Origin: a virus
Reading direction: 5' to 3' (one strand)
DNA length: 39,106 nt
Virus record (IMG/VR): IMGVR_UViG_3300035130_000073
Span: 1 to 39,106 of that record
Below the pieces are notes generated by a model, which made no database searches, was not told the origin of the DNA, and saw only the letters and a list, made by a program, of their open reading frames with translations. How positions within the stretch are numbered: the stretch's first letter is position 1; every line of letters begins with the position of its first letter. Of the stretch, positions 5,504 through 39,106 are shown piece by piece. Made by a program: the position numbers and the translations under genes.

Positions 5504-6412
5504 ATGGCAAATAGTATATCTTATGCAAAAGCCTACAAAGATAAGCTTGACGAAATATTTAAGGCCGGGGCTGTTACTGCTATGATGGAAGCGGCGGAAG
5601 GTACTTATAAATTTAATCCGGAAAATGCACAGGAAATTTTATTACAAAAAGTAAGTGTAAATGGATTGGGTGATTATTCAAGATCAAATGGTTATGTTTC
5701 CGGTGATGCGACAGTTACATGGGAAACGCATTCATTTGGACAAGATAGGGCAAGAAAATTTAATCTTGACACTATGGACGCAAAAGAAGCTATGTTCATG
5801 GTTGGCCGTTTAATGGCTGAAATTATGAGAACTCAAATTATACCGGAAATTGACGCTTATAGGTTCCATAAAATCTGTAATTTATGTAGTGTTGATGCAA
5901 CTGCCGATTTAACAGTTGATACCGTTGTAAATGCAATTGACACCGGTGTACAGACTTTAAATGATGCAGAGGTACCGGAAGAAGGTAGAGTGTTATTTTT
6001 AAGTAATACAGTTGATAACCTATTAAAGAACTCTGGCGAATTTTACAAAACTAGAGTAACGCATGATAATGCAGTTCAAAAAATTCAAAGAAAAATTTCT
6101 ATGCTTGACGATATGCCAATAATAAGAGTGCCTAAAGCAAGGTTCTATAGTGCTTTTGATTTTTATGATGGTGAGTCAGGCGGAGAAACAGCCGGAGGAT
6201 TTACTCCAAGTGCTGGGTCAAAAGAGCTTAATTTTATGATTGTACCTATCCAATATGTAATAGGTGTTATTCGTCATATGGACCCTAAATTAATTCAACC
6301 ACAATACAACGCCGATCATGACGGTTGGATATTTGCACCGAGACTATACCATGAATTGTTTATTCCAGAAAATAAATTAGGCGGTATTTACATACATAAA
6401 AAATCTTCATAA
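5504..6412 (+). CDS. Major capsid protein
   Basis: A 302-residue protein directly after the scaffold, preceded by AAAGGAGTG. The sequence shows an N-terminal helix (MANSISYAKAYKDKLDEIFK), a SYSRSNGYVSGDATVTWETH-like E-loop/beta region (pieces YSRSNGYVSGD and TVTWETHSFGQDR), and a C-terminal stretch ending in RLYHELFIPENKLGGIYIHK. The order and size match HK97-fold capsid proteins that pair with gp20 scaffolds. With no delta domain or protease visible, the scaffold is probably the separate protein upstream. Expected to be the most abundant virion protein. Confidence 0.88.
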   Translation: MANSISYAKAYKDKLDEIFKAGAVTAMMEAAEGTYKFNPENAQEILLQKVSVNGLGDYSRSNGYVSGDATVTWETHSFGQDRARKFNLDTMDAKEAMFMVGRLMAEIMRTQIIPEIDAYRFHKICNLCSVDATADLTVDTVVNAIDTGVQTLNDAEVPEEGRVLFLSNTVDNLLKNSGEFYKTRVTHDNAVQKIQRKISMLDDMPIIRVPKARFYSAFDFYDGESGGETAGGFTPSAGSKELNFMIVPIQYVIGVIRHMDPKLIQPQYNADHDGWIFAPRLYHELFIPENKLGGIYIHKKSS

Positions 6413-7445: not shown

Positions 7446-8294
7446 ATGTTAGGTTTAGGACTAGGGTTAAATAAAAATAATTATAGTGGTGCTTTTACGG
7501 GGCCATTAGACTATTATAGTCAACTAAATTATACTTTTATGGGCCTTAGCATTTATAGACTTACAAAAGAGTATTCCGGATATTGTATGAAAATTAGAAG
7601 AAGCTCTGACAATGCGACAAAAGATATCGGCTTTTCTGGTAGTTTTGTTAATCGTGGAGCTATACAAAGTTTTTGCGGTTCCGGTGATGGTTACGTTCAT
7701 ACTCTTTATGACCAGTCAGGAAATGGCAATAATGCAGTCCAAACTAATAGCAGTTATCAACCTAAAATTTGTGAAAGTGGAGTCTTTATTGAAAAAGGTA
7801 TAAAATTTGATGGGGTTGACGATAGGTTAGACGTTGGCGACACTGGCGGGACTATGTGGAGTGGATATATAAGCTTTGAAACTAATCAAGAAATTACTTA
7901 TAATTCTTCACGAAAACTATCGTTTAATCTCGAAGATAATTACGGCGGTATTCGCTTTGGTAATACTACCGGATATCTTACAAACGAATTATTGGCGGTT
8001 TATGCGGCTGATAGTAATAGATCGGGTTGGGTATCAATATATGACACAATTACCACCGGCACAGTGCATAAACTTTTAACTATATTTAATACAGGGGCCA
8101 ATTTATTTGATATGAGGTATGATGGAACCTATCGAGGAATAACTAAAGTTAATACCCCAGCCGCTATATCTTGTGACAATGTAAGATTAGGGGCAACTAT
8201 GGACGGGGCTGATTGGTTAGATGGGTATGCAAGGTCATTTATATTGTTAAATACAACAATATATGTATCATGGAATTGGTTAAGTACTGTATGA
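7446..8294 (+). CDS. Beta-sandwich (LamG/arabinofuranosidase-B-like) virion protein
   Basis: A 282-residue protein with the pattern seen in concanavalin-like domains related to the catalytic fold of arabinofuranosidase B: YCMKIRRSSDNATKDIGFSG near residue 45, VHTLYDQSGNGNNAVQTN near 87-104, and IKFDGVDDRLDVGD near 119-132. In phages this fold usually serves in carbohydrate binding on head or tail surfaces. I cannot say whether catalytic acids are present. Position after the capsid genes and before the repeat protein suggests a head-surface or fibre component. Confidence 0.7.
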   Translation: MLGLGLGLNKNNYSGAFTGPLDYYSQLNYTFMGLSIYRLTKEYSGYCMKIRRSSDNATKDIGFSGSFVNRGAIQSFCGSGDGYVHTLYDQSGNGNNAVQTNSSYQPKICESGVFIEKGIKFDGVDDRLDVGDTGGTMWSGYISFETNQEITYNSSRKLSFNLEDNYGGIRFGNTTGYLTNELLAVYAADSNRSGWVSIYDTITTGTVHKLLTIFNTGANLFDMRYDGTYRGITKVNTPAAISCDNVRLGATMDGADWLDGYARSFILLNTTIYVSWNWLSTV

Positions 8295-8349: not shown

Positions 8350-9264
8350 ATGGCATACACATTAAAAGGTAAGTTGGATTCTATTGGCGATGGTCTGTCT
8401 AGTATAGCGACCGCGTCAAGTCAAATAGCTTCAAATGCAACGGTTTTTGATTCTCTAATTACAGCGGAATCAACAAATGTTAGTTCTTTAACAAGTGCCG
8501 CAACTGATATATCAACCGGTGCTAGTACTATAGTAAGTGCCGGAGCGGCAATAAGTACGGCGAATGATGGAATTGATTCAGTTGGAACTTTAGTTAGTAC
8601 TGGTAATAGTTCGGCCGTAAGCGTTGGAACTTTGGTTAGTACTGCAAATGCTAAAAATGATAGTATTGGAGTTTTACAAAGTACGGGGAATAGTTCAGCG
8701 GTTAGTGTTGGAACCTTAGTTAGTACTGCGAATAGTTTAGGCACTGTTAACGGTTCTAAGATTACTAGTGTTGGAACTTTAGCAAGTACAGGAAACAGTC
8801 TTATAGCTAGTTATGGAACTAAAACAGATAGTGTCGGAACTGCAACAAGTACGGCAAATAGTACAAATTATTCAGCGATTCAAAGTGTTGGAACTTTGCA
8901 AAGTACGGGCAATAGTTCAGCGGTTAGCATAGGAACATTGTTGAGTACTGGAAATTCTAAGACAGATAGTGCGGCAACGGCGGCCAGTACTGCAAATAGT
9001 TCAAGCTTGTCAGCTATTACTAGTTACGGTACGGCCGGAAGTACTGCAAATAGTTCTAGTTTGTCAGCTATTGCTAGTTATGGCACAGCCGGAAGTACTG
9101 CAAATAGTACTAATTTGTCGGCGGTAGATAGTGCGGCGGTAGCGGCTTCAACTGCTAATAGTTCGGCTTTGTCTGCGGTTGTATCACTTGCAACGGTTGT
9201 ATCAACTGGATTTAGCACAACAGATAGTAAGGTAGATTCAGTTGGTGTTGTAGCGGCCGGATAA
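8350..9264 (+). CDS. Ser/Thr/Ala-rich repeat protein, probable virion fibre
   Basis: 304 residues that are almost all Ser, Thr, Ala, Val, Gly and Asn, with no Cys, Trp or Pro seen. After residue 60 it consists of imperfect repeats of 14 residues (SVGTLVSTGNSSAV and variants) and, towards the end, 18 residues (SYGTAGSTANSSSLSAIA). The DNA repeats too, so copy number may vary by recombination. A long, thin oligomeric fibre is likely, as coiled coil or beta structure. The many exposed Ser/Thr and the glycosyltransferase gene directly downstream suggest it may be O-glycosylated. ATG follows AAAGGAGTG. Confidence 0.75.
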   Translation: MAYTLKGKLDSIGDGLSSIATASSQIASNATVFDSLITAESTNVSSLTSAATDISTGASTIVSAGAAISTANDGIDSVGTLVSTGNSSAVSVGTLVSTANAKNDSIGVLQSTGNSSAVSVGTLVSTANSLGTVNGSKITSVGTLASTGNSLIASYGTKTDSVGTATSTANSTNYSAIQSVGTLQSTGNSSAVSIGTLLSTGNSKTDSAATAASTANSSSLSAITSYGTAGSTANSSSLSAIASYGTAGSTANSTNLSAVDSAAVAASTANSSALSAVVSLATVVSTGFSTTDSKVDSVGVVAAG

Positions 9265-9279
9265 TAGGAGGATTTTAAA

Positions 9280-10344
9280 ATGATTATTGTACATATTGCC
9301 CCTTTTGCCCCTAATGCTTGTGGTCTTTATGAGGCGGCTAGAGACATGAGTAGAGCGGATATCCTTGGAGAAAACAACGTATATTTTATTGATGCAGGTG
9401 TTTCAAGAAATGGGATAAGGGAAAACGGGATAATAGGGCAAGTTGATGAAAGGGGCGACTTTAGGCTAGAAACAAGCGACCCCTTATTTATAAATGAAGC
9501 TGATATTATTATTATGCATACTGGATGCAATGATAACTGGATAGTCAAAACACAAGCCCCAATATTGTGGGCCGTTCATGGGCGGCCGTTAGCTTGTTTT
9601 AGGCCGGAGCGTATTAGCAGTAACAACTTTAATTCTTTTACTTTGTATCATGATATAAGCAAGTGGAAAAGGGTAAAAGGAATGTTATATTTTTGGCCTG
9701 AATTTAAGTCATATTGGGAAAATGTATTATCAAGTAAAGATATTGTTTTAGACTATCCGGTTATTGACGAAAAAAGGTTTTTTATAAAAAATGTTAATGT
9801 ATTAGAAAATAAGGGTGAAATAAATATATTATTATGTGATAGTGAACGTGAGGACATATGCAATTATGAAGTTGTTAATGGATTAATACAAGCATGTAAA
9901 AGGTTTAAAAATATTAAAGTGCATATTTGCGGAATGGATTTATTAGAAGGTGGGAAAATTCCTAATTGTTGGGGTATTGTTTTAGATAAATTAAAACAAT
10001 TGGGCGGCCTTGGTAATGTTTATGGAAGATTAACCAATATGTTAGATGTTTATAATTCTGTGGATTGTGTTATAAGTCCAAATAGAATTATAACTAGAAC
10101 TATTGGAGAGGCTTTAACTTGTGGGGTTCCGGTTATTAGTGAAGTCAACGAAACTAACCTTGTTAGTGATTATACATGTAATATGTCTAATCCTAAAGAT
10201 ATCATACAAGCTTTAGAATGGTTTATTGATGATTTCAAAAATAATAAAATTGATCGAGAGGCTATAAGAAAAAGGGCCGAAGTTTTCAGTTTAAAAAATT
10301 ACTCTGACAAGATGAATAAAATATATAAAAAGGTGTTGTCATGA
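9280..10344 (+). CDS. GT-B glycosyltransferase (GT4-like)
   Basis: A 354-residue enzyme with two Rossmann halves. The N-terminal half opens with IIVHIAPFAPNACGLYEAAR, the glycine-rich acceptor loop typical of GT-B enzymes. The C-terminal half carries the donor-site motif TIGEALTCGVPVIS near residue 275, with the conserved Glu of the GT4 family. It transfers a sugar from an activated donor; the acceptor is unknown. It sits between two virion genes and overlaps the gp10-like gene by four bases (ATGA), so it is made with structural proteins. Likely acceptors are the repeat protein just upstream or the capsid; action on host polymers is possible. Confidence 0.85.
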   Translation: MIIVHIAPFAPNACGLYEAARDMSRADILGENNVYFIDAGVSRNGIRENGIIGQVDERGDFRLETSDPLFINEADIIIMHTGCNDNWIVKTQAPILWAVHGRPLACFRPERISSNNFNSFTLYHDISKWKRVKGMLYFWPEFKSYWENVLSSKDIVLDYPVIDEKRFFIKNVNVLENKGEINILLCDSEREDICNYEVVNGLIQACKRFKNIKVHICGMDLLEGGKIPNCWGIVLDKLKQLGGLGNVYGRLTNMLDVYNSVDCVISPNRIITRTIGEALTCGVPVISEVNETNLVSDYTCNMSNPKDIIQALEWFIDDFKNNKIDREAIRKRAEVFSLKNYSDKMNKIYKKVLS

Positions 10345-21623: not shown

Positions 21624-21658
21624 TTGAATCTAACACAATGTTATTGTGTTAGATTCAA
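21624..21658. terminator. Perfect 15-bp inverted repeat after the virion operon
   Basis: TTGAATCTAACACAA and its exact complement are separated by a five-base loop. No T run follows on either strand, so it is not a standard intrinsic terminator. It nevertheless marks the boundary between virion and accessory modules. Alternatives are an RNA processing site, an operator or a recombination site. Confidence 0.5.
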
Positions 21659-21722
21659 CAATATGGTTATAAGATAGCATTAATGCACGTTTTGAAAGTT
21701 TTTGTATTGACAGAAAAAAAAT

Positions 21723-21765
21723 GATATGTTTCAAACAATACATATCGTATATTGGGATACAATAT
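21723..21765 (+). promoter_or_regulatory. Two adjacent dyads upstream of the first accessory HTH gene
   Basis: GATATGT and ACATATC face each other across 10 bases (21723-21746), followed by ATATTG and CAATAT across five (21749-21765). A TTGACA at 21707 lies just upstream, but I find no well-spaced -10 box. This looks like an operator region, plausibly for the HTH protein encoded directly downstream. Confidence 0.4.
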
Positions 21766-21783
21766 GTTAGATTGGGGGTAAAT

Positions 21784-21984
21784 ATGCAAGATGAAATTTT
21801 AAACATACTAGATTTATGCGAAGTTTTAAAAATATCAGATATCGAAGCTAAAAAATTAATGAAAAGATTAAATGCAAAAATGATTTTTGGAAGGTATTTT
21901 ATCACAAGGAAAATGTTAACCGACTATATTGAAAATGATGCAATACTTAAAAATGATAAAGGCTTTTTACCTCCAAATTTATGA
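21784..21984 (+). CDS. Excisionase/MerR-type HTH protein 1
   Basis: 66 residues from the ATG at 21784, preceded by GGGGGTAAAT; the frame extends upstream to 21721 without another ribosome site. The core ILDLCEVLKISDIEAKKLMK followed by GRYFITRKMLTDYIEN matches the HTH_17 excisionase family: a helix-turn-helix, then a beta hairpin ('G.YFIT') and a helix. Such proteins bind DNA as small architectural or regulatory factors in plasmids, ICEs and phages. No integrase is present for it to partner. Confidence 0.7.
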   Translation: MQDEILNILDLCEVLKISDIEAKKLMKRLNAKMIFGRYFITRKMLTDYIENDAILKNDKGFLPPNL

Positions 21985-21997
21985 AAGGGGATAGTTT

Positions 21998-22282
21998 ATG
22001 TTTGATTTAACACTATTAGATGATTTGACCAACGCCGAACTTGATGAAGTTCTGAAATATATTCATGATAAAAAAAAGAAAACAAAAGATATTTTTGGAG
22101 AATTTTTAGATAATTATGTTTTTGAAGAAAACAAAAAATATACAACTAAAAGTTTATACAAAGACTTTGAAAAGCATTGCAAGGATAAAAAAAAGGTTTG
22201 TCCTATGATTGGGCCATTTACAAAGAGATTAATTAAGTTTAAAGAAGATAATCCAGAAAAAGGGAAGAATATCGAAATTTAA
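21998..22282 (+). CDS. Small basic protein, possible winged-helix domain
   Basis: 94 residues, Lys-rich. After an acidic N-terminus (LDDLTNAELDEVLKYI), the segment YTTKSLYKDFEKHCKDKKK leading to MIGPFTKRLIKFKED resembles the C-terminal winged-helix part of D5-like primase-helicases, where 'ly..y..wc' precedes 'F.k.l'. It could be a stand-alone DNA-binding domain of the accessory module. Preceded by GAAAGGGGA. Function unproven. Confidence 0.45.
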   Translation: MFDLTLLDDLTNAELDEVLKYIHDKKKKTKDIFGEFLDNYVFEENKKYTTKSLYKDFEKHCKDKKKVCPMIGPFTKRLIKFKEDNPEKGKNIEI

Positions 22283-22343
22283 TAAAATGTCAAATTATGA
22301 TAATATATACAGATTGAAAAATACAGAAAATGGGGGAAAAACA

Positions 22344-23396
22344 ATGAAAAAGTTAACTATATTGTTAATAATTGTTACATTATTTACTTTAAACTTTGCT
22401 TTTGTCAATGCAGAAGAAACAGAACAGCCATCTTGCAGTCAACAGCCTACATGTGAGCCAAGTCCTAGTATAGATAATAGTGATAATTCTGATAATAGCG
22501 ATAATTCTGATAATAGCGATAATAGTACTAATGTTGACGTTGACCAAAGTACAGAAACAAACGAAGAAACAACAACTACTACAACAACTGAAAATGACAC
22601 AGAAGTAAGTAATGAGAACGAAGTTGAAAACAACACAGAAAATGAAACAGAAACAACAACAACTACAACACAAAATAATAATAAGGATTCAGAAATTAAT
22701 AATAATACTGAAAATACTACAACTAACGAAACAACTACAGTAAATAGCAATAACCAAATTAATAGCAATAATACAACAACTAATAATATTACAAATAATA
22801 CTTATGTTCAAAGCGTTGAATGTAGTCAAAATGAATTAGGTGTTGATAAGGTAAAAGTTGATTTTGGTAAAACATTTAGTGTTGAAAGTGGAAAAGCTTT
22901 AAAAACTGTTTATTATAAAGGGGAAAAAGTTATAAAATTAACTGGAAACAAACTTAATGCAACTCTTTATTTATACGGTAAAGAATTTAAAAATGCTTAT
23001 TGTAAGGCAAAAAGTTTCAAACTTAAAAAAGGTTTAAATAAACTTAAGCATGAAGTATTTATTAATGGGAAAAAGTGTGTTGTAAATATGACTGTTTACT
23101 CTCACAAAGCGAATGTATTATGCAATGTTAATACCAATACAAACAATGGAAAAGTGGTAGACACTAAAAAAATTATTGTAACAGATAAAAAAGCAGACGA
23201 AGTTAAAACAACAACAAGTGTTGTTAGTGCCTCCGGAGTGTTGGCGGCAAAAACACCAGTCGAAGCTGTTCAAGTTTCAAGTAACGGAAGTTTACCACAA
23301 ACAGGTGAAGGAACTCCGATACTTCCAATTATAATAGGTGCTTTGTTAATAATGGTAGGTATCGCAGCAACATTTAAATTGAAACATGCAAAATAA
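22344..23396 (+). CDS. LPXTG cell-wall-anchored surface protein
   Basis: A secreted protein of about 350 residues. The ATG at 22344 follows GGGGG and opens a signal peptide (MKKLTILLIIVTLF, cleavage expected after FVNA); an ATG at 22287 has no ribosome site. A Ser/Asn/Asp and Thr/Glu/Asn-rich stalk (about 25-165) includes tandem SDN and T repeats. A small globular domain (about 175-275) holds several cysteines, unusual for Gram-positive surface proteins. The end has the full sortase signal: LPQTG near 317, a hydrophobic span and a basic tail. It will be linked to peptidoglycan of the carrier cell. Roles could be adhesion, receptor masking or cell contact during transfer. Confidence 0.88.
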   Translation: MKKLTILLIIVTLFTLNFAFVNAEETEQPSCSQQPTCEPSPSIDNSDNSDNSDNSDNSDNSTNVDVDQSTETNEETTTTTTTENDTEVSNENEVENNTENETETTTTTTQNNNKDSEINNNTENTTTNETTTVNSNNQINSNNTTTNNITNNTYVQSVECSQNELGVDKVKVDFGKTFSVESGKALKTVYYKGEKVIKLTGNKLNATLYLYGKEFKNAYCKAKSFKLKKGLNKLKHEVFINGKKCVVNMTVYSHKANVLCNVNTNTNNGKVVDTKKIIVTDKKADEVKTTTSVVSASGVLAAKTPVEAVQVSSNGSLPQTGEGTPILPIIIGALLIMVGIAATFKLKHAK

Positions 23397-23433
23397 AATA
23401 ATATAATAGTTTTAACCTTGAATTATTAATAAG

Positions 23434-23463
23434 AAGACTCTGGGCCGTTTAGGTCTTTTTTTT
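23434..23463 (+). terminator. Terminator after the LPXTG gene
   Basis: AAGAC and GTCTT form a short stem around a GGGCC-containing loop, followed by about eight T residues. A promoter-like TTGAAA/17/TATAAT lies just upstream (23379-23407), but the transcript would be only about 45 bases long, so that box may be chance. Confidence 0.6.
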
Positions 23464-23465
23464 GT

Positions 23466-23494
23466 TTGACTTGTGCCGCAAAATGACATAAAAT
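23466..23494 (+). promoter_or_regulatory. Promoter for HTH-2 and the DNA translocase
   Basis: TTGACT, a spacer of exactly 17 bases, and TAAAAT. It sits directly behind the LPXTG terminator, so the HTH-2/translocase pair forms its own transcription unit. It lacks the GGATA-N3-TATCC palindrome found in four other promoters here, so control is probably separate. Confidence 0.65.
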
Positions 23495-23528
23495 AATGCA
23501 AAATAACAAAAAAAAGGGGGTAATTGAA

Positions 23529-23723
23529 TTGGATGATAAATTATATTCAGTTGAAGAAGTCGCGAAAATGTTTGGGGTAGCAAATACAACTATTAGAAAG
23601 AAGCTAAGAAAAAAAGAATTGCATGGATTTAAAATCGGAAAAGCTTGGAGAATAAAAAGGACGGAGATTCAAAGGTATTGTAAGGAGGGAATTGACAAGG
23701 CCGAAAAAGAAGGGTTAAGGTGA
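23529..23723 (+). CDS. Excisionase-type HTH protein 2
   Basis: 64 residues from a TTG at 23529, spaced correctly from AAGGGGG. The ATG at 23496 lies only two bases after the -10 box, so it would not be on the transcript with a leader. The core YSVEEVAKMFGVANTTIRKK with LHGFKIGKAWRIKRTEIQRY is a textbook HTH_17 domain (helix-turn-helix, wing, helix). Proteins like this often precede FtsK-type coupling genes in ICEs and plasmids, where they regulate transfer or replication genes. It ends four bases before the translocase ATG. Confidence 0.8.
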   Translation: MDDKLYSVEEVAKMFGVANTTIRKKLRKKELHGFKIGKAWRIKRTEIQRYCKEGIDKAEKEGLR

Positions 23724-23727
23724 TTTT

Positions 23728-25542
23728 ATGAAATTTTTGGGTAAAAACTTATATAACTTATTTGTATATTTAAAAGCAAAAAAAATAAAGCGAATACCAG
23801 TCGCTTTATATATAATAATATTATTATTTGTTTTTGTAAGTTTCTCAACAAAAAAAACATGTTTGAGTCTTTGTATTGTCGTCCTTACATGGATATTAAT
23901 GTATAGTTGGTCATTTTCCAAATCCATAAAATATTATAACACAAGATTTGAAGTTTATAATTTAATAAAAAATAACAGAAGTATTAAATTTGTAGGGCTA
24001 ACTTATCAAGATCAATTTATACTATATAGATTTAAAACCAATATTCCTTTGGAAGAGTTAAGGAAAAGAAAGTCAAGCTTAGAAATGGCATTAAAAACTA
24101 ATATTATCGAAATGGAACTTTATGGTAGGAGTAAAAGTATTTACCAGTTCGTAACAAGTAAGAAAAAAATTGACTTCAAGGCCAAGGCTAAATTATCTAG
24201 TCAAATTCAAGATAAGTTATTTGCGGCTTTTAGAGAATGTAATATTAAGATATCAAATATCGAGGTTATCAAGGAACCCTATAAAAAAACTATATGTTTT
24301 GACTCGAATGAGAATAAGAAAGCTCTAGAAAATAGCCTATATGAAATTGAACATTTAACAGGATTAAGAAATTTAAAGCTTTATTCTGATATAAATTATG
24401 ATTACAAAATAGTATTAAATAAAAATATTGGTATTATAAGCTTTTATACTTTAGTTAAAAATACAAATCTAACCAATAAGGAGAATATGATTGTAGGGCT
24501 AAAAAATAGTGGTAGTTTAGAAATATTAGATATAAAAAAAATATATCATTCAATTGTTGCCGGTTCTACTGGGAAAGGGAAGAGTAACTTTAGTCATGTT
24601 GTTTGTAGTTCTCTAATTAAATCTAATTTAGATATTGCTATGTTCTTATTGGACCCAAAGAAATCAGAGCTAAAGAGATATCGTGATATTGACCGGGTGT
24701 TTTACTCCGGAGATCACAAGGAAATAAACAATATATTAAGTGAAATAGTTAAAGAAATGGACCGTAGGAACATTATGTTTGAAGGAGACAAATTTATTAA
24801 TAATATTGAAATGTGGAACAATTCCAAAGAAGATAAGTTGAATTATATTATAGTTTATGTTGAAGAGATCGCCGACTTAATTATGTCAAGTGATGAAAAA
24901 GACGAAAACTCTTTCAAGAATAATGTAACTAGATTATGTCAGTTAGGCCGTTCCGTTGGTATCAGAGTCTTTTTAAGTACACAAAAGCCAAATGCTGAAA
25001 TAATACCAACTATTATCAAAGGAAATTGCTATACTAGATTTGGTTTTGCTACAACTAACATTATAGAATCAAGGGTAATTTTGGATAACTCAATGTGCTG
25101 TGATCTTAAACAAGCCGGTGACATGATATTCCAAAATAACGGCGAAAATATCAAATTAAAGGTTCCTTTGATTGAGGAAAAATTCATTGTAAATATTGTT
25201 GAATATTTAGAAAAAAATCATAATAAAAAGGCCGATTATCCATTGTCCGGTCGAATGGTCGAAATGGTTAAATCTAAACTTGGAGTTAAAAAAACAGGCG
25301 ACCAATGCGACGGTCGCGACCCGGTCGCAACCATTATAAAAAATAAGCATGATTTGCTTGATTTTTATAAAAAATACTGTGAAAATGAAATTTTTTCTTC
25401 AAGAATAACAAGTGAAAAAGTTGACATAGGAAAAACAAAAATTCAAGAATACAGAAAAGAATTAATAAAAGATGGTACATTAATTGAAAAAGGTAAAAAA
25501 ACATATTTAAATAAAAAAATTAACATCATTAGACTAAAATAA
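23728..25542 (+). CDS. Membrane-anchored FtsK/SpoIIIE-type DNA translocase
   Basis: 604 residues. Two membrane spans lie near 24-42 and 45-63. The motor domain has Walker A AGSTGKGKSN near 279, SMFLLDPKKSELKRY-like sensor sequence after it (seen as FLLDPKKSELKRY), Walker B YIIVYVEEIADLI near 371 and FLSTQKPNAEIIPTIIKGN near 416. The C-terminal 90 residues resemble a winged helix (ITSEKVDIGKTKIQEYRKEL). Relatives include TcpA, Tn916 Orf21 and actinomycete TraB, which pump DNA at the membrane in conjugation. No relaxase gene is nearby, so single-strand transfer is unlikely; dsDNA transfer, segregation or dimer handling are options. It is unusual in a phage. Confidence 0.88.
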   Translation: MKFLGKNLYNLFVYLKAKKIKRIPVALYIIILLFVFVSFSTKKTCLSLCIVVLTWILMYSWSFSKSIKYYNTRFEVYNLIKNNRSIKFVGLTYQDQFILYRFKTNIPLEELRKRKSSLEMALKTNIIEMELYGRSKSIYQFVTSKKKIDFKAKAKLSSQIQDKLFAAFRECNIKISNIEVIKEPYKKTICFDSNENKKALENSLYEIEHLTGLRNLKLYSDINYDYKIVLNKNIGIISFYTLVKNTNLTNKENMIVGLKNSGSLEILDIKKIYHSIVAGSTGKGKSNFSHVVCSSLIKSNLDIAMFLLDPKKSELKRYRDIDRVFYSGDHKEINNILSEIVKEMDRRNIMFEGDKFINNIEMWNNSKEDKLNYIIVYVEEIADLIMSSDEKDENSFKNNVTRLCQLGRSVGIRVFLSTQKPNAEIIPTIIKGNCYTRFGFATTNIIESRVILDNSMCCDLKQAGDMIFQNNGENIKLKVPLIEEKFIVNIVEYLEKNHNKKADYPLSGRMVEMVKSKLGVKKTGDQCDGRDPVATIIKNKHDLLDFYKKYCENEIFSSRITSEKVDIGKTKIQEYRKELIKDGTLIEKGKKTYLNKKINIIRLK

Positions 25543-25605
25543 GATATAATATTGTTGAATAAAAATAAACTTTGTAGTCCTATTTATAAAAATACTAGCT
25601 AAAAT

Positions 25606-25637
25606 AAAAAGCCTTTTTTAGGGGCTTTTTATTTTTT
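25606..25637 (+). terminator. Terminator after the translocase
   Basis: AAAAAGCC pairs with GGCTTTTT around a short T-rich loop and the T run continues for several bases. It closes the rightward accessory module. Confidence 0.85.
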
Positions 25638-26795: not shown

Positions 26796-26836
26796 ATTAA
26801 TTTCCCCCTTGATTTGTTGTCGTTGACTATGATTAC

Positions 26837-26865
26837 ATTATATCGGATATTTTATCCGTTGTCAA
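26837..26865 (-). promoter_or_regulatory. Promoter with GGATAAAATATCC operator (leftward)
   Basis: On the minus strand TTGACA and TATAAT are separated by 17 bases containing GGATAAAATATCC (26845-26857 on the plus strand as its complement). Three bases lie between the palindrome and the -10 box, as in the other operator promoters. Drives 26795 to 25807. Confidence 0.85.
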
Positions 26866-26976
26866 TACTTTTTTTATATTTTTTATTTTGTGATATAATT
26901 AAAACATTATTCTATTAAGTTATTTTGTAAGATTTGTTTTTAATGTTTTTGATATTATAATATACTCATTTTTATT

Positions 26977-27016: not shown

Positions 27017-27466
27017 TCACTTTATAAAAGTTACATTGTTAACATCTACATTGATTCCTAGTCCTTTGATTTCTCCTTTAACTGTTACCTTATCGCCTTT
27101 TTTCAATTCTGCTACAAAATTTTTGTGGCTGTCTTCAAGCAATAAGCTTACTTGAGGAAAAGATATTTCATCGTCAGCTATTGTAACCGTTAACATTCCG
27201 AGGACTTCTGAAATTGAAATCACTTTTCCGGTTATTTGAGCGTATTTGCCCTTATATTTGATATCGGCCTTGACTTCGTTTTCTTCGTAAGCTTTACATA
27301 ACTCTTTGCTAGTTACTTCTAGGTCAATTTTTTTCTTTTCTTGTGTTGGTAAAGCGGTTTTTGATATTTGTTTTTTCTTTGTTTCAGTTGGTACAGTCGG
27401 TTCACAACTTCCAAATATTAATCCTAACAACCCGATTGTTATAAAAAAAATAATTGCTTTTTTCAT
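27017..27466 (-). CDS. Lipoprotein with tRNA_anti-like OB fold
   Basis: 149 residues. A basic start and hydrophobic segment end in a lipobox-like LIFGSC (Cys 21), so it is probably a lipoprotein on the outer face of the membrane. A Lys/Thr linker leads to an OB-fold domain (about 50-149): DIKYKGKYAQITGKVISIS and KGDKVTVKGEIKGLG are typical of the tRNA_anti-like family. Phage lipoproteins made during lysogeny can block DNA entry of related phages (for example Ltp of TP-J34), so superinfection exclusion is a reasonable guess. Ribosome site AAGGAGG. Confidence 0.75.
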   Translation of the reverse strand: MKKAIIFFITIGLLGLIFGSCEPTVPTETKKKQISKTALPTQEKKKIDLEVTSKELCKAYEENEVKADIKYKGKYAQITGKVISISEVLGMLTVTIADDEISFPQVSLLLEDSHKNFVAELKKGDKVTVKGEIKGLGINVDVNNVTFIK

Positions 27467-34420: not shown

Positions 34421-34466
34421 TGTTTTACAACTCCTTTACATATAATATTTGATTGCTATACATATA

Positions 34467-34495
34467 ATTATACACACATTTTTAAAATAAATCAA
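34467..34495 (-). promoter_or_regulatory. Promoter of the leftward replication operon
   Basis: On the minus strand TTGATT, 17 bases, TATAAT, 47 bases before the RHH start. The downstream part of the spacer region and leader holds TATA/GTATA dyad sequence that could serve the RHH protein. No GGATA-N3-TATCC palindrome is present. Confidence 0.6.
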
Positions 34496-34589
34496 TAATT
34501 GTTTATTTTTTAACACAATTTTAGTGTTTTTTTATCCGATTTTGGTTTTATTTAAAACAAGTCGAATAGTTTTTTAACTGTCCGCTAAA

Positions 34590-34888
34590 ACCTTTCCGAC
34601 AAACCTTCCGACTTATAGCCGTTCTGCTAGTTTTGTTTTGAAAGTTTTCGGAGAGCCGGAAAGGTTTTAACAAAAAAAAGTTTCTATATAAAAAAAAAGT
34701 GTGTATATACATATAAAAAATATAATTGTGTGTATCTTTTTTTTTCTATAGAGAAATACTATAAAAACTTTCCGACTTTCCGAACTTTCCGATTATACTT
34801 CTTTATTATCTTCTTTTCTCTTCTTAGAGAAAGAAAGAAAGAAAAAGAATATAAGTCGGAAAGTTTGTCGGAAGGTTGTCGGAAGGTT
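34590..34888. other. Iteron cluster, probable replication origin
   Basis: Nine near copies of (A)CYTTCCGAC: forward at 34590 and 34603; reversed at 34656 (CCGGAAAGGT); three forward in tandem at 34767, 34775 and 34784; three reversed at 34855, 34867 and 34878 (GTCGGAAAGT, GTCGGAAGGT twice). Between them lie a very AT-rich stretch (34676-34765) and a polypyrimidine/polypurine block (34798-34850). Repeated binding sites around easily melted DNA beside a helicase gene are the design of iteron origins. The initiator protein is unknown. Confidence 0.8.
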
Positions 34889-35220
34889 TGATTTTTTTTT
34901 AAATAACTATCCTATAACATTTTAATAACATTAAACCAACTCTATCAGCATCAATGTGATAATTTTGTGCTTAAGTTGAAATATGAACATGGCAAATAAT
35001 TAACTTAGAGTTAACATTGTTAATTTGGCTGAAATGAATTTTGTAGTCTTTTGATAATTTCGTAACATATGCAACGTAATTTTGTAATAAATTATGGCTT
35101 GTAGTGTTGACCACATGTTTAATATGCAATAATGCCTATTATATGTAGATTAGTTGACATTTATTTACAATTGATCTCAATACTGATAGATTCAAGAATA
35201 GAATAAATTCCTTTGTATCC
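34889..35220. other. Gene-free AT-rich DNA right of the iterons
   Basis: No ORF with a ribosome site. It holds a T run, and a double dyad TTAACT-TAG-AGTTAA sharing bases with TTAAC-ATT-GTTAA (35000-35023). Otherwise I see nothing specific; it may be part of the origin. Confidence 0.45.
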
Positions 35221-35248
35221 TTGAAAGAGGGTTTTTTTATGATATAAT
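35221..35248 (+). promoter_or_regulatory. Promoter of candidate small RNA
   Basis: TTGAAA, 16 bases and TATAAT preceded by TGA (extended -10). The next feature downstream is a terminator, with no ORF between. Confidence 0.55.
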
Positions 35249-35254
35249 TGTATT

Positions 35255-35362
35255 AGTTTTTACATACTTTAAGTAATTTTTTTTTGGAACTGAAATGACA
35301 TATTGTTTAGTTTTCCCTAAACAAACAAAAATACAAAAAGCCCATTTTTTTGGGTTTTTTGT
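35255..35362 (+). ncRNA. Candidate small RNA next to the origin
   Basis: A promoter at 35221-35248 and an intrinsic terminator at 35334-35360 (AAAAAGCCCA stem with TGGGTTTTTT) enclose about 105 bases with no coding potential. A hairpin TTGTTTAG/CTAAACAA lies at 35303-35324. Sited between origin and lysis genes, it could control replication or lysis, but no target pairing was searched. Confidence 0.5.
35334..35362 (+). terminator. Terminator of the candidate small RNA
   Basis: A stem with CCCA/TGGG core extended by A/T pairs, then a T run. It stands immediately before the -35 box of the lysis promoter. Confidence 0.75.
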
Positions 35363-35390
35363 TTGCTTTTTGTAACAAAAATGATATAAT
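35363..35390 (+). promoter_or_regulatory. Lysis-module promoter
   Basis: TTGCTT, 16 bases and TGA-TATAAT. The -10 box overlaps TGATA-TAA-TATCC (35382-35394), one base away from the operator half-site rule, so the same regulator might touch it weakly. The transcript would have a leader of about 200 bases. Confidence 0.5.
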
Positions 35391-35530
35391 ATCCATTAAG
35401 GGTTGTTATTTAAAAATGGTTGTGTTCGCTATAGATTGGTTTTACAATAAATATAGTAGTTAGTGAAATAGTATTGATAATACTTATTGAAATAGTTTTA
35501 AGAAGAATTACTTCCTTGATTTAATGTTTG

Positions 35531-35565
35531 GGCTATAGGTTTGTTATATAAATACACCTATAGCC
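35531..35565 (+). promoter_or_regulatory. Large hairpin in the lysis leader
   Basis: GGCTATAGGT and ACCTATAGCC pair perfectly around 15 bases, followed by TTTATC. It lies 38 bases before the holin-like start. It could act as attenuator, terminator or timing element for lysis; the T run is short. Confidence 0.55.
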
Positions 35566-35602
35566 TTTATCAATAAAAAATACTAAAGAAAGGAGAAAAT
35601 CA

Positions 35603-35890: not shown

Positions 35891-36667
35891 ATGAGTTGGT
35901 ATAACATTGAAGGATTAGGAACTATTAAGCACGATCAAGACCCAACAAACGACTGTTTATATCTTGATGCAGGGCACGGAGGCACAGACACAGGCTGTAT
36001 ATTTTACGACGGAACATACGAAAAGACTTATGTTTTAGACATATTTAAAAGGGTAGAGAAAATATGTAAACCTTATTTTAGTAGGGTATATGTTACAAGG
36101 ACCACTGACACAAGCGTATCTTTAGAAACAAGAACCAAGTCAATGAAAAGTTTAGCAAGTAAATTTAAATCAGTTCAAGCCTACTCAATACATTGCAATG
36201 CTTATAATGGAATATCTAAAGGGGCCGAATGGTTGTTAAGTATATCTACGCCAAAAAGCCATAGTGATTATATTTTTTGTACAAATTTTTTGAAATATTA
36301 TTGTAAAGAATTTAGTTTAAATAATCGTGGTATAGTCCAAAGGCGTGGCAACAATGGCGATTATTATTATTTACACAGAAATACACCGTCTAACTGCAAA
36401 GTAAAATTTATTGAAATGTTTTTTGGAGATAACCGCGATGACTGCAAAAAGGGGCAAACAGAAGCTTTTAAGGATAAGGCAAGCTTTTTCTTAGCTTCTT
36501 ATATATTAAGGCGTTATGGTGTAATATTAAAAAAGCCAGAGACTAAACCAGATAAGCTTTATATAGTTCAGGCCGGTGCATATACTAAGAAGGAAAACGC
36601 GGACCAACAAGTCAAAGCACTGGCGAAAAAGGGTTTTGATGCTTTTGTGAAAATAGAAAAACAGTGA
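35891..36667 (+). CDS. N-acetylmuramoyl-L-alanine amidase endolysin (Amidase_3, SPOR)
   Basis: 258 residues. The catalytic domain has LDAGHGGTDTG (zinc His near residue 27), a Glu in TYEKTYVLDI, AYSIHCNAYNG (zinc His near 100) and KFIEMFFGDN (catalytic Glu near 173). It cuts the bond between muramic acid and the stem peptide. The C-terminal residues 217-258 (KLYIVQAGAYTKKENADQQV...) form a SPOR-like domain that binds peptidoglycan lacking stem peptides. No signal peptide, so release depends on the holin. Confidence 0.95.
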   Translation: MSWYNIEGLGTIKHDQDPTNDCLYLDAGHGGTDTGCIFYDGTYEKTYVLDIFKRVEKICKPYFSRVYVTRTTDTSVSLETRTKSMKSLASKFKSVQAYSIHCNAYNGISKGAEWLLSISTPKSHSDYIFCTNFLKYYCKEFSLNNRGIVQRRGNNGDYYYLHRNTPSNCKVKFIEMFFGDNRDDCKKGQTEAFKDKASFFLASYILRRYGVILKKPETKPDKLYIVQAGAYTKKENADQQVKALAKKGFDAFVKIEKQ

Positions 36668-36728: not shown

Positions 36729-36782
36729 AAACCTTTCAATTTAGATTGGTTTATTTTTTTTGTGTTTTTTTAAGAAAAACAC

Positions 36783-36811
36783 TTGACTTGGGATAAAATA
36801 TCCGATATAAT
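36783..36811 (+). promoter_or_regulatory. Promoter with GGATAAAATATCC operator (early operon)
   Basis: TTGACT, 17 bases, TATAAT; the spacer contains GGATAAAATATCC (36791-36803). The sequence from the palindrome through the start region (to TATAGTAAG) is the same as in the promoter at 38968. Drives the early operon from 36861. Confidence 0.88.
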
Positions 36812-36860
36812 ATAAATATAGTAAGTCGCAACACAATAATAAATCAAGGGGGATTAGATT

Positions 36861-38041: not shown

Positions 38042-38145
38042 TTGAAAAAGATTGTGAAAAGATTGATTCTATACTTGGTAGAGTTGGTTGTAACATAGAA
38101 ATGTTAAAAAATCAAATAAAGGTGGACAAGGAAAATGAGTTATAG
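38005..38145 (+). CDS. Hypothetical 46-aa helical protein
   Basis: TTG start six bases after GGAGGTGA, inside the end of the membrane-protein gene and in another frame. The product is a single helix-rich chain (IRNIVKMIEKDCEKIDSIL). It overlaps the next ATG by 11 bases. The excellent ribosome site supports it. Confidence 0.55.
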   Translation: MDIQDIRNIVKMIEKDCEKIDSILGRVGCNIEMLKNQIKVDKENEL

Positions 38146-38344
38146 GTTTAATGGTGAAAAGTTTAAAAGGCTGTTAGGTGAAAAGGGCCTAACAGTCCAT
38201 GACATGGCCGCCAAGTTAGGAATAAAATATGATAGTCTCTATCGGAAAATAGTAAATATAAATGGGTTTAAGATGTCAGAGATAATAATAATATTAGAAA
38301 CTTTAAACAAAACATTTGAGGAGGTTTTCATGGATAATGAATGA
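38135..38344 (+). CDS. Cro/CI-type HTH regulator
   Basis: 69 residues. LGEKGLTVHDMAAKLGIKYD with SLYRKIVNINGFKMSEIIII is the XRE/Cro helix-turn-helix (helices near 11-45). Lacking a C-terminal oligomerisation or protease domain, it resembles Cro more than CI. It lies in the early operon under an operator promoter, so it is one candidate for binding GGATA-N3-TATCC. Ribosome site AAGGTGG/AAGGAAA. Confidence 0.8.
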   Translation: MSYRFNGEKFKRLLGEKGLTVHDMAAKLGIKYDSLYRKIVNINGFKMSEIIIILETLNKTFEEVFMDNE

Positions 38345-38702: not shown

Positions 38703-38959
38703 GTGTTTATGAAAATATAAAAATAACAAAAAATGCTTTTAATACCAGTTACCAAATAAATAGAAGGGCCGAAGACATTGTTGCAAGTGTAGCAGTAAGG
38801 GAAGGAATAAATATAAATAAAGATGAATTAATAGAAGTTGTAAGTACTTATGCGACAAAGTCAATATTATCTATGGATTCATGCTTGCAACTATTTTCAT
38901 TACATTTATTCCAAGGTAACAGCTACGAAAAAACATTAAAAAGATTTAGAGAAAAGTAG
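38699..38959 (+). CDS. Hypothetical 86-aa protein
   Basis: Helical protein (INRRAEDIVASVAVREGINI, then ELIEVVSTYATKSILSMDS), last gene of the early operon, overlapping the previous stop by four bases (ATGA). GTGGAGGAACAATT ahead of the ATG. The operator promoter of the ERF gene begins nine bases after its stop. No family recognised. Confidence 0.6.
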   Translation: MSVYENIKITKNAFNTSYQINRRAEDIVASVAVREGININKDELIEVVSTYATKSILSMDSCLQLFSLHLFQGNSYEKTLKRFREK

Positions 38960-38967
38960 ATAAAAAC

Positions 38968-38996
38968 TTGACAAAGGATAAAATATCCGATATAAT
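38968..38996 (+). promoter_or_regulatory. Promoter with GGATAAAATATCC operator (recombination operon)
   Basis: TTGACA, exactly 17 bases, TATAAT; the spacer holds GGATAAAATATCC (38976-38988). On the circle it drives the ERF gene at 60 (copy at 39039). Its -10 half is repeated at 12-17 in this window. Confidence 0.9.
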
Positions 38997-39106
38997 ATAA
39001 ATATAGTAAGTATTAAATTTCTAGGAGGTAATTATATTATGGATATAAGTAAAATGAGTTTTAACAAAAGGATTAGACTAGTTAAAAAAGAGACTTTTGA
39101 CGCGGT
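38980..39106. repeat. Direct terminal repeat, right copy
   Basis: Exact copy of bases 1-127; see the left copy. The unique circular length is 38979 bp. Confidence 0.95.
39039..39106 (+). CDS. 5' end of the ERF gene, duplicated by the contig overlap
   Basis: The first 68 bases of the gene at 60-824, truncated by the window end. It is the same gene seen twice and not a second copy. Confidence 0.93.
   Translation, partial: MDISKMSFNKRIRLVKKETFDA

Follow-up and report, generated by a model that had tools for sequence, protein, structure and literature searches.

Can a phage carry a system that brings cells into contact and pumps double-stranded DNA (dsDNA) from one to the other? The question is raised by positions 21624 to 25637 of the virus record IMGVR_UViG_3300035130_000073, where five plus-strand genes reach from the last tail gene to a convergent replication operon and include those for a sortase-anchored surface protein with an LPXTG motif and a membrane DNA translocase of the FtsK/SpoIIIE family. 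A first-pass annotation of the window (here, the whole 39,106-nucleotide stretch analyzed) had read these genes as one plasmid-like module for joint cell contact and dsDNA transfer. This joint system was not borne out: the LPXTG and FtsK genes are not conserved together in related phages, and they look like separable accessories that are neighbors by chance in this genome. The evidence favors the simpler alternative offered by the same annotation, segregation or surface conversion. With confidence a little above even, we read the stretch as two neighboring, separable accessory cassettes in the slot behind the last tail gene. Cassette A encodes small DNA-binding proteins and the LPXTG protein and would serve surface conversion; cassette B pairs a helix-turn-helix (HTH) protein of the HTH_17 family with FtsK and would form an intracellular pump for phage DNA.

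LPXTG and FtsK genes in related phages

Kin genomes were reached through the DEAD-helicase gene, and 35 slot loci were reached through the tail gene adjoining the slot. The family consists of siphophages of 38 to 41 kb, and counts were made over 16 complete or near-complete genomes, with LPXTG recognized by a regular expression and the motor by a hidden Markov model (G653, G654, G655, and G659 were read to 39 kb, and G670 was read in part). Four genomes carry both LPXTG and FtsK genes, six carry LPXTG only, one carries FtsK only, and five carry neither; the two genes are thus not significantly associated (Fisher P = 0.59). A gene for a sortase-anchored protein was present in 10/16, mostly in the post-tail slot. 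Scanning IMG/VR and bacterial genomes with one protein at a time (FtsK, the LPXTG domain, or the capsid protein) turned up no relative besides a near-identical contig, and alignments of TerL and of the FtsK motor were too general to serve as a route to relatives.

The slot of G630, the relative with the best helicase match (58%), holds winged-HTH-like, HTH, and LPXTG genes and no FtsK gene. In G635 and G653, the slot encodes an HTH protein, a protein with two transmembrane (TM) segments, and an LPXTG protein; in G661, G666, and G671, the LPXTG gene lies immediately behind the tail genes; and in G632, G651, and G633, the slot is empty. On contig L350, the tail gene is followed by an HTH gene and then directly by an orthologue of the window FtsK (46% identity, amino acids [aa] 3 to 580), with no LPXTG gene between the tail gene and the HTH-FtsK pair. 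This is the only orthologue found for the window motor, and the HTH gene before it is the same gene as that for the window HTH_17 protein (Z = 16.8); the pair is therefore kept in one relative. Given LPXTG without FtsK in six kin and HTH-FtsK without an intervening LPXTG gene in L350, the idea that HTH, LPXTG, and translocase genes form a jointly conserved module was abandoned.

Distant membrane FtsK genes were found in G654, G655, and G659, on the strand opposite the tail genes. G655 and G659 have an LPXTG gene too, about 8 to 10 kb from FtsK if the contigs are circular, and in G670 (70 kb), an LPXTG gene is accompanied by two FtsK-like genes, one of them about 5 kb away from LPXTG. Other FtsK forms were also seen in these searches. 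A second membrane FtsK family of 585 to 590 aa, with a nearby multi-TM gene of 332 to 348 aa, is present in kin phages (L342, 11464 to 13221; L347, 12019 to 13791; L353, 11741 to 13507; all on the minus strand), and L364 carries a third form together with a TM protein and a tyrosine recombinase. The slot of L349, from about position 6350, encodes a serine resolvase-like protein, an HTH protein 45% identical to the window HTH_17 protein, and a four-TM protein of 438 aa.

Transcription units and the surface protein

The stretch contains the following features, in order (strand given where assigned):

21624-21658: perfect 16-bp inverted repeat, terminator ending the tail operon (hairpin scan)
21784-21984 (+): small HTH-like protein, 66 aa, open reading frame listed from 21721 (weak excisionase match, PHROG 4370, E = 9.5e-4)
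21998-22282 (+): basic 94-aa protein, probably winged-helix DNA-binding (likeness to the same-slot G630 protein)
22344-23396 (+): surface protein of the LPXTG sortase-anchored type (signal peptide; stalk rich in N, T, and E; domain of ~110 aa, probably all beta; LPQTGE anchor)
23442-23456 (+): terminator-like site at the boundary between the LPXTG and HTH-FtsK units (terminator scan)
23466-23494 (+): promoter-like TTGACT-17-TAAAAT before the HTH-FtsK pair (consensus match only)
23496-23723 (+): HTH_17 excisionase-type DNA-binding protein, 75 aa, partner of FtsK (Pfam, 3e-13)
23728-25542 (+): FtsK/SpoIIIE-family membrane DNA translocase, 604 aa (Pfam, PHROG, profile, PDB, and fold matches)
25601-25635 (+): terminator separating the FtsK unit from the convergent replication operon (inverted repeat and terminator scan)

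Because the LPXTG gene is set apart from the HTH-FtsK pair by a terminator-like site (23442 to 23456) and a promoter-like site (23466), the stretch probably comprises two transcription units and not the single one first described. The terminators ascribed to it are well represented, with 7 terminator-like sites in the scanned region versus 1.4 expected. The promoters ascribed to it appear as consensus-like matches, which as a class are no commoner in the region than in shuffled sequences, and the site at 23466 is no more than suggestive.

Two excisionase-type HTH proteins had been called. The 75-aa protein stands on its Pfam match, whereas the 66-aa protein matches an excisionase PHROG weakly (E about 1e-3); its start, ATG 21784, was placed by a ribosome-binding site. 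The small basic protein is present as described, matches no Pfam family, and is reinterpreted as a probable winged-helix DNA-binding protein from its likeness to the G630 protein in the same slot (shuffled-sequence Z = 4.3; 2/500 shuffles as high).

The surface protein proved to be what the first-pass annotation had called it. Its likely start is ATG 22344, which gives a signal peptide, and not 22287; the end has LPQTGE, then a hydrophobic stretch, and then a basic tail (NCBIfam LPXTG_anchor, 18.1 bits; cutoff, 15.9), such that every mark of an LPXTG sortase substrate, together with the stalk, is found in it. The match to Pfam Gram_pos_anchor falls slightly under that family's cutoff (E = 0.0035), and LPXTG proteins of kin match the same family at 7e-9 and 9e-8. 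The beta domain is similar to its counterpart in the G630 LPXTG protein (Z = 5.8; 0/500 shuffles as high); the predicted structure of the window domain (predicted local distance difference test [pLDDT] score of 34) was not used. Unlike other such sortase substrates, the window protein is phage encoded and sits at a fixed slot behind the tail genes. Phage-encoded LPXTG proteins are a known kind, for example, the prophage-borne surface proteins of staphylococci. In an infected or lysogenic host, sortase would presumably attach the protein to the cell wall. There, it probably hides or modifies the host surface, as in superinfection exclusion or adhesion. The varied sortase-anchored proteins of the post-tail slot suggest that these phages widely convert the surfaces of their Gram-positive hosts, a matter of relevance to both superinfection exclusion and adhesion.

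The translocase motor and its probable role

The 604-aa protein consists of a TM hairpin (aa 18 to 64), an alpha-like domain and RecA motor (about 118 to 503), and a gamma-like winged helix (about 540 to 604). The earlier call of a membrane FtsK/SpoIIIE-type motor was confirmed by its matches (Pfam FtsK_SpoIIIE, 7e-22; PHROG 1358, 6e-56) and by two hydrophobic segments within aa 18 to 64, which are predicted to form the hairpin. Both Walker motifs expected of an FtsK/SpoIIIE motor domain are present: Walker A is intact (GSTGKGKS), and Walker B reads VEE where VDE is expected. An AlphaFold model built with 60 homologues has pLDDT of >90 over most of aa 160 to 500. The winged-helix end, also called earlier, is supported by a weak Phage_rep_O match and a collinear profile alignment with the FtsK gamma domain, and model confidence there is low.

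When the motor was compared with FtsK, TraB, TcpA, and Orf21, FtsK was favored by profile, PDB, and fold matches. With the L350 orthologue added, and with five sequences in the FtsK profile against single sequences for Orf21 and Tra, chromosomal FtsK matched best (E = 9e-33; 338 columns, from the motor into the gamma winged helix), followed by Tn916 Orf21 (2e-8; 158 columns) and pIJ101 Tra (7e-8; 171 columns). The best PDB sequence match was FtsK, and in Foldseek searches, Escherichia coli and Pseudomonas aeruginosa FtsK ranked top, with TcpA a close second. On these sequence and model comparisons, we lean toward a motor more like FtsK/SpoIIIE than like transfer motors. Chromosomal FtsK/SpoIIIE proteins share its Walker motifs and membrane anchor but have four TM helices instead of two and a long linker that the shorter, phage-borne protein lacks. 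The coupling proteins Tn916 Orf21 and TcpA share the two-TM anchor and FtsK-like motor; however, Orf21 has no winged helix, and a Pfam scan of 40 window proteins found neither relaxase nor type IV secretion system genes. The same scan yielded no integrase, resolvase, or ParA, in agreement with the earlier statement that relaxase and integrase are absent. Searches with aa 60 to 256 alone gave no match by tblastn in phages and plasmids and only weak or motor-linked matches in 587 genomes of two bacterial classes; in 395 genomes, the matches listed for a full-length FtsK profile span the motor only, as with chromosomal FtsK.

Actinomycete TraB moves dsDNA between cells without a relaxase. By analogy, the translocase might pump double-stranded phage DNA into a neighbor cell held by the LPXTG protein. 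Its layout of TM segment, motor, and C-terminal winged helix is that of pIJ101 Tra, there is a weak NCBIfam TraB match (1.6e-7; 30 bits; cutoff, 800), joining the motor with pIJ101 Tra is not rejected by the approximately unbiased (AU) test (P = 0.16), and a cluster of 8-bp repeats exists at 34592 to 34884. However, Tra scores far below FtsK in the profile comparison, no Spd-like spread genes were recognized in the window, the repeats lie 9 kb off in an origin-like region, and virions already serve the phage for transfer. Together with the lack of joint conservation of LPXTG and FtsK genes, these points make TraB-like transfer improbable. A minimal version, in which LPXTG adhesion and a TraB-like pump send naked dsDNA to a neighbor cell and bypass the virion, is less probable still.

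A pump for phage DNA within the cell is the role we favor for cassette B. The TM hairpin would keep the motor at the membrane as an anchored dsDNA pump, the gamma-like winged helix may load it on chosen phage or plasmid DNA sequences, and the FtsK hexamer would then translocate phage or plasmid DNA within the cell. The most likely role would be segregation or division-site clearance of an unintegrated prophage, or the handling of replicating concatemers. Segregation is suggested because of the likeness to FtsK/SpoIIIE, the gamma-like end, the lack of a recognized integrase, and the partition genes near plasmid parallels (below). In this reading, the phage would have a prophage-plasmid lifestyle.

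Several observations weigh against this interpretation. Maximum-likelihood trees put the motor on a long branch outside the chromosomal FtsK clade and leave its placement open: holding it within that clade was not rejected (AU test, P = 0.066), and neither was any other constrained placement tested (Bacillus phage cassette, Orf21, Tra, Sarcina phage-plasmid, and linear plasmid pELF). The unequal make-up of the profile comparison itself favors FtsK. The partition protein ParA was not found in the Pfam scan, and plasmid maintenance is a proposal. The L350 contig (11.7 kb) ends inside FtsK, and an LPXTG gene may lie further downstream. Finally, the four genomes with both LPXTG and FtsK include the window, where alone the two are adjacent; the FtsKs of G654, G655, G659, and G670 are of distant types.

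Instead of maintaining a prophage, membrane FtsK might act in the lytic cycle, in replication or host takeover (processing concatemers, clearing host DNA, or blocking division). FtsK/SpoIIIE genes are common in phages, large Bacillus phages included; that of phage Fah is reported as delayed early (PMC4113786); and the membrane FtsK genes of G654, G655, and G659 lie on the other strand from the tail genes. The window gene, however, follows the tail genes and has a promoter-like site and a terminator of its own, and kin without any FtsK exist; we regard a lytic role as possible and rather unlikely. The motor could also block or eject the DNA of competing phages, in the manner of HerA or SspH. 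PADLOC motor models match (SspH, 9.5e-21; MADS8, 7e-14), and the phage has a Sie-like lipoprotein gene as well; yet the matches span the shared ATPase core only, the SspH models are very long, and no nuclease or effector partner is present, so that such a defense function appears doubtful.

Phage FtsK cassettes are an already known kind, and parallels to cassette B bear on the pump reading. Bacillus phages SpaA1 (P26 to P28) and phi18-2 (gp30 to gp32) and plasmids of B. arachidis and Geobacillus, with pLW1071 among the plasmid examples, have three genes in a row that encode a small membrane protein, a soluble FtsK, and a winged-helix Replic_Relax protein. The phage cassettes are located between lysis and replication genes, and those on the two plasmids lie near ParM partition genes. 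The window has the same three functions in the same order, in the same late/replication slot, fused in one gene rather than three. The motors fall in different parts of the unconstrained tree (joining them was not rejected; AU test, P = 0.24), and the window motor has no Pfam match to the Replic_Relax domain of the Bacillus cassettes. In Sarcina phage-plasmid p1, which carries a tail tape-measure gene, FtsK likewise combines a hydrophobic N terminus, motor, and winged-helix C terminus in one polypeptide, but its motor is distant (hhalign, 1.5e-8) and its longer C terminus resembles Replic_Relax. By sequence, then, the window and Sarcina proteins each look like the function set of the Bacillus cassette in a single chain. 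Among B. subtilis phages from Tumamoc Hill, two genomes that are 96% identical differ mainly by an FtsK unit of four genes, an accessory that 268TH007 has and its sister lacks (PMC9476937). Roles given in the literature for phage FtsK cassettes (replication module, sporulation, and prophage induction) are suggestions only. For pELF1, a self-transmissible linear plasmid of Enterococcus faecium, a role of FtsK is merely suspected (PMC6863802). On an E. faecium linear plasmid sequence (L272, 1 to 7889), a class C sortase gene lies a few kilobases upstream of an FtsK gene.

Within the reach of our searches, two variants of these known kinds are new: a one-gene, fused FtsK that has an HTH gene as its partner, and a slot behind the tail genes that holds LPXTG proteins throughout a phage family. 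Membrane FtsK pumps recur in phages, and this one-gene form with its HTH partner, set beside close relatives without FtsK, offers a clean natural comparison.

The genome around the stretch

The first and last 127 bases of the window are identical, and contig L002, 99.7 to 99.9% identical to it, crosses the end-to-end junction; the window is therefore a complete phage genome, circular and 38,979 bp long. The phage, one of Gram-positive bacteria, is of the siphophage type, and its plus strand encodes the terminase, tail, and tape-measure proteins. The minus strand carries replication genes (VapE-like helicase, DEAD helicase, primase zinc domain, and VRR nuclease), next to which are the endolysin, early genes, and ERF recombinase. 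Rfam and tRNA searches of the window gave no match. The parts list of the first-pass annotation and its plasmid-like flavor hold. Among phage-plasmid features, a ribbon-helix-helix (RHH) protein and iteron-like repeats are present; integrase and ParA were not found among the scanned proteins.

The repeats form one further feature:

34592-34884: cluster of CTTTCCGA(C) repeats, both orientations (repeat search)

They lie in a 1.2-kb noncoding region (34421 to 35602) that adjoins the RHH gene and is origin-like. In a search of the window for 8-mers like the FtsK-orienting polar sequence (KOPS) or the TraB recognition sequence (TRS), this CTTTCCGA cluster alone stood out, and no strand-biased KOPS-like 8-mer did. 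The cluster may represent origin iterons or a site at which a DNA-binding protein loads.

At three promoters, 26826 to 26873 (−), 36773 to 36826 (+), and 38958 to 39011 (+), the −35/−10 elements are close to consensus and the spacer has the palindrome GGATA-AAA-TATCC. These sites are probably operators of one repressor; an XRE-type protein is encoded at 38135 to 38344.

Elsewhere in the genome, a lipoprotein with a tRNA_anti-like domain (27017 to 27466, −) matches a Sie-like superinfection-exclusion PHROG (9e-17), and the endolysin (35891 to 36667) is of the Amidase_3 type with a SPOR domain at its C terminus. A virion-region protein (7446 to 8294) includes an arabinofuranosidase-like ArabFuran-catal match (4e-9). 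In the same region, a Ser/Thr-rich repeat protein, possibly a glycosylated virion protein, adjoins a glycosyltransferase-like gene (8350 to 9264 and 9280 to 10344), and both are retained in several kin.

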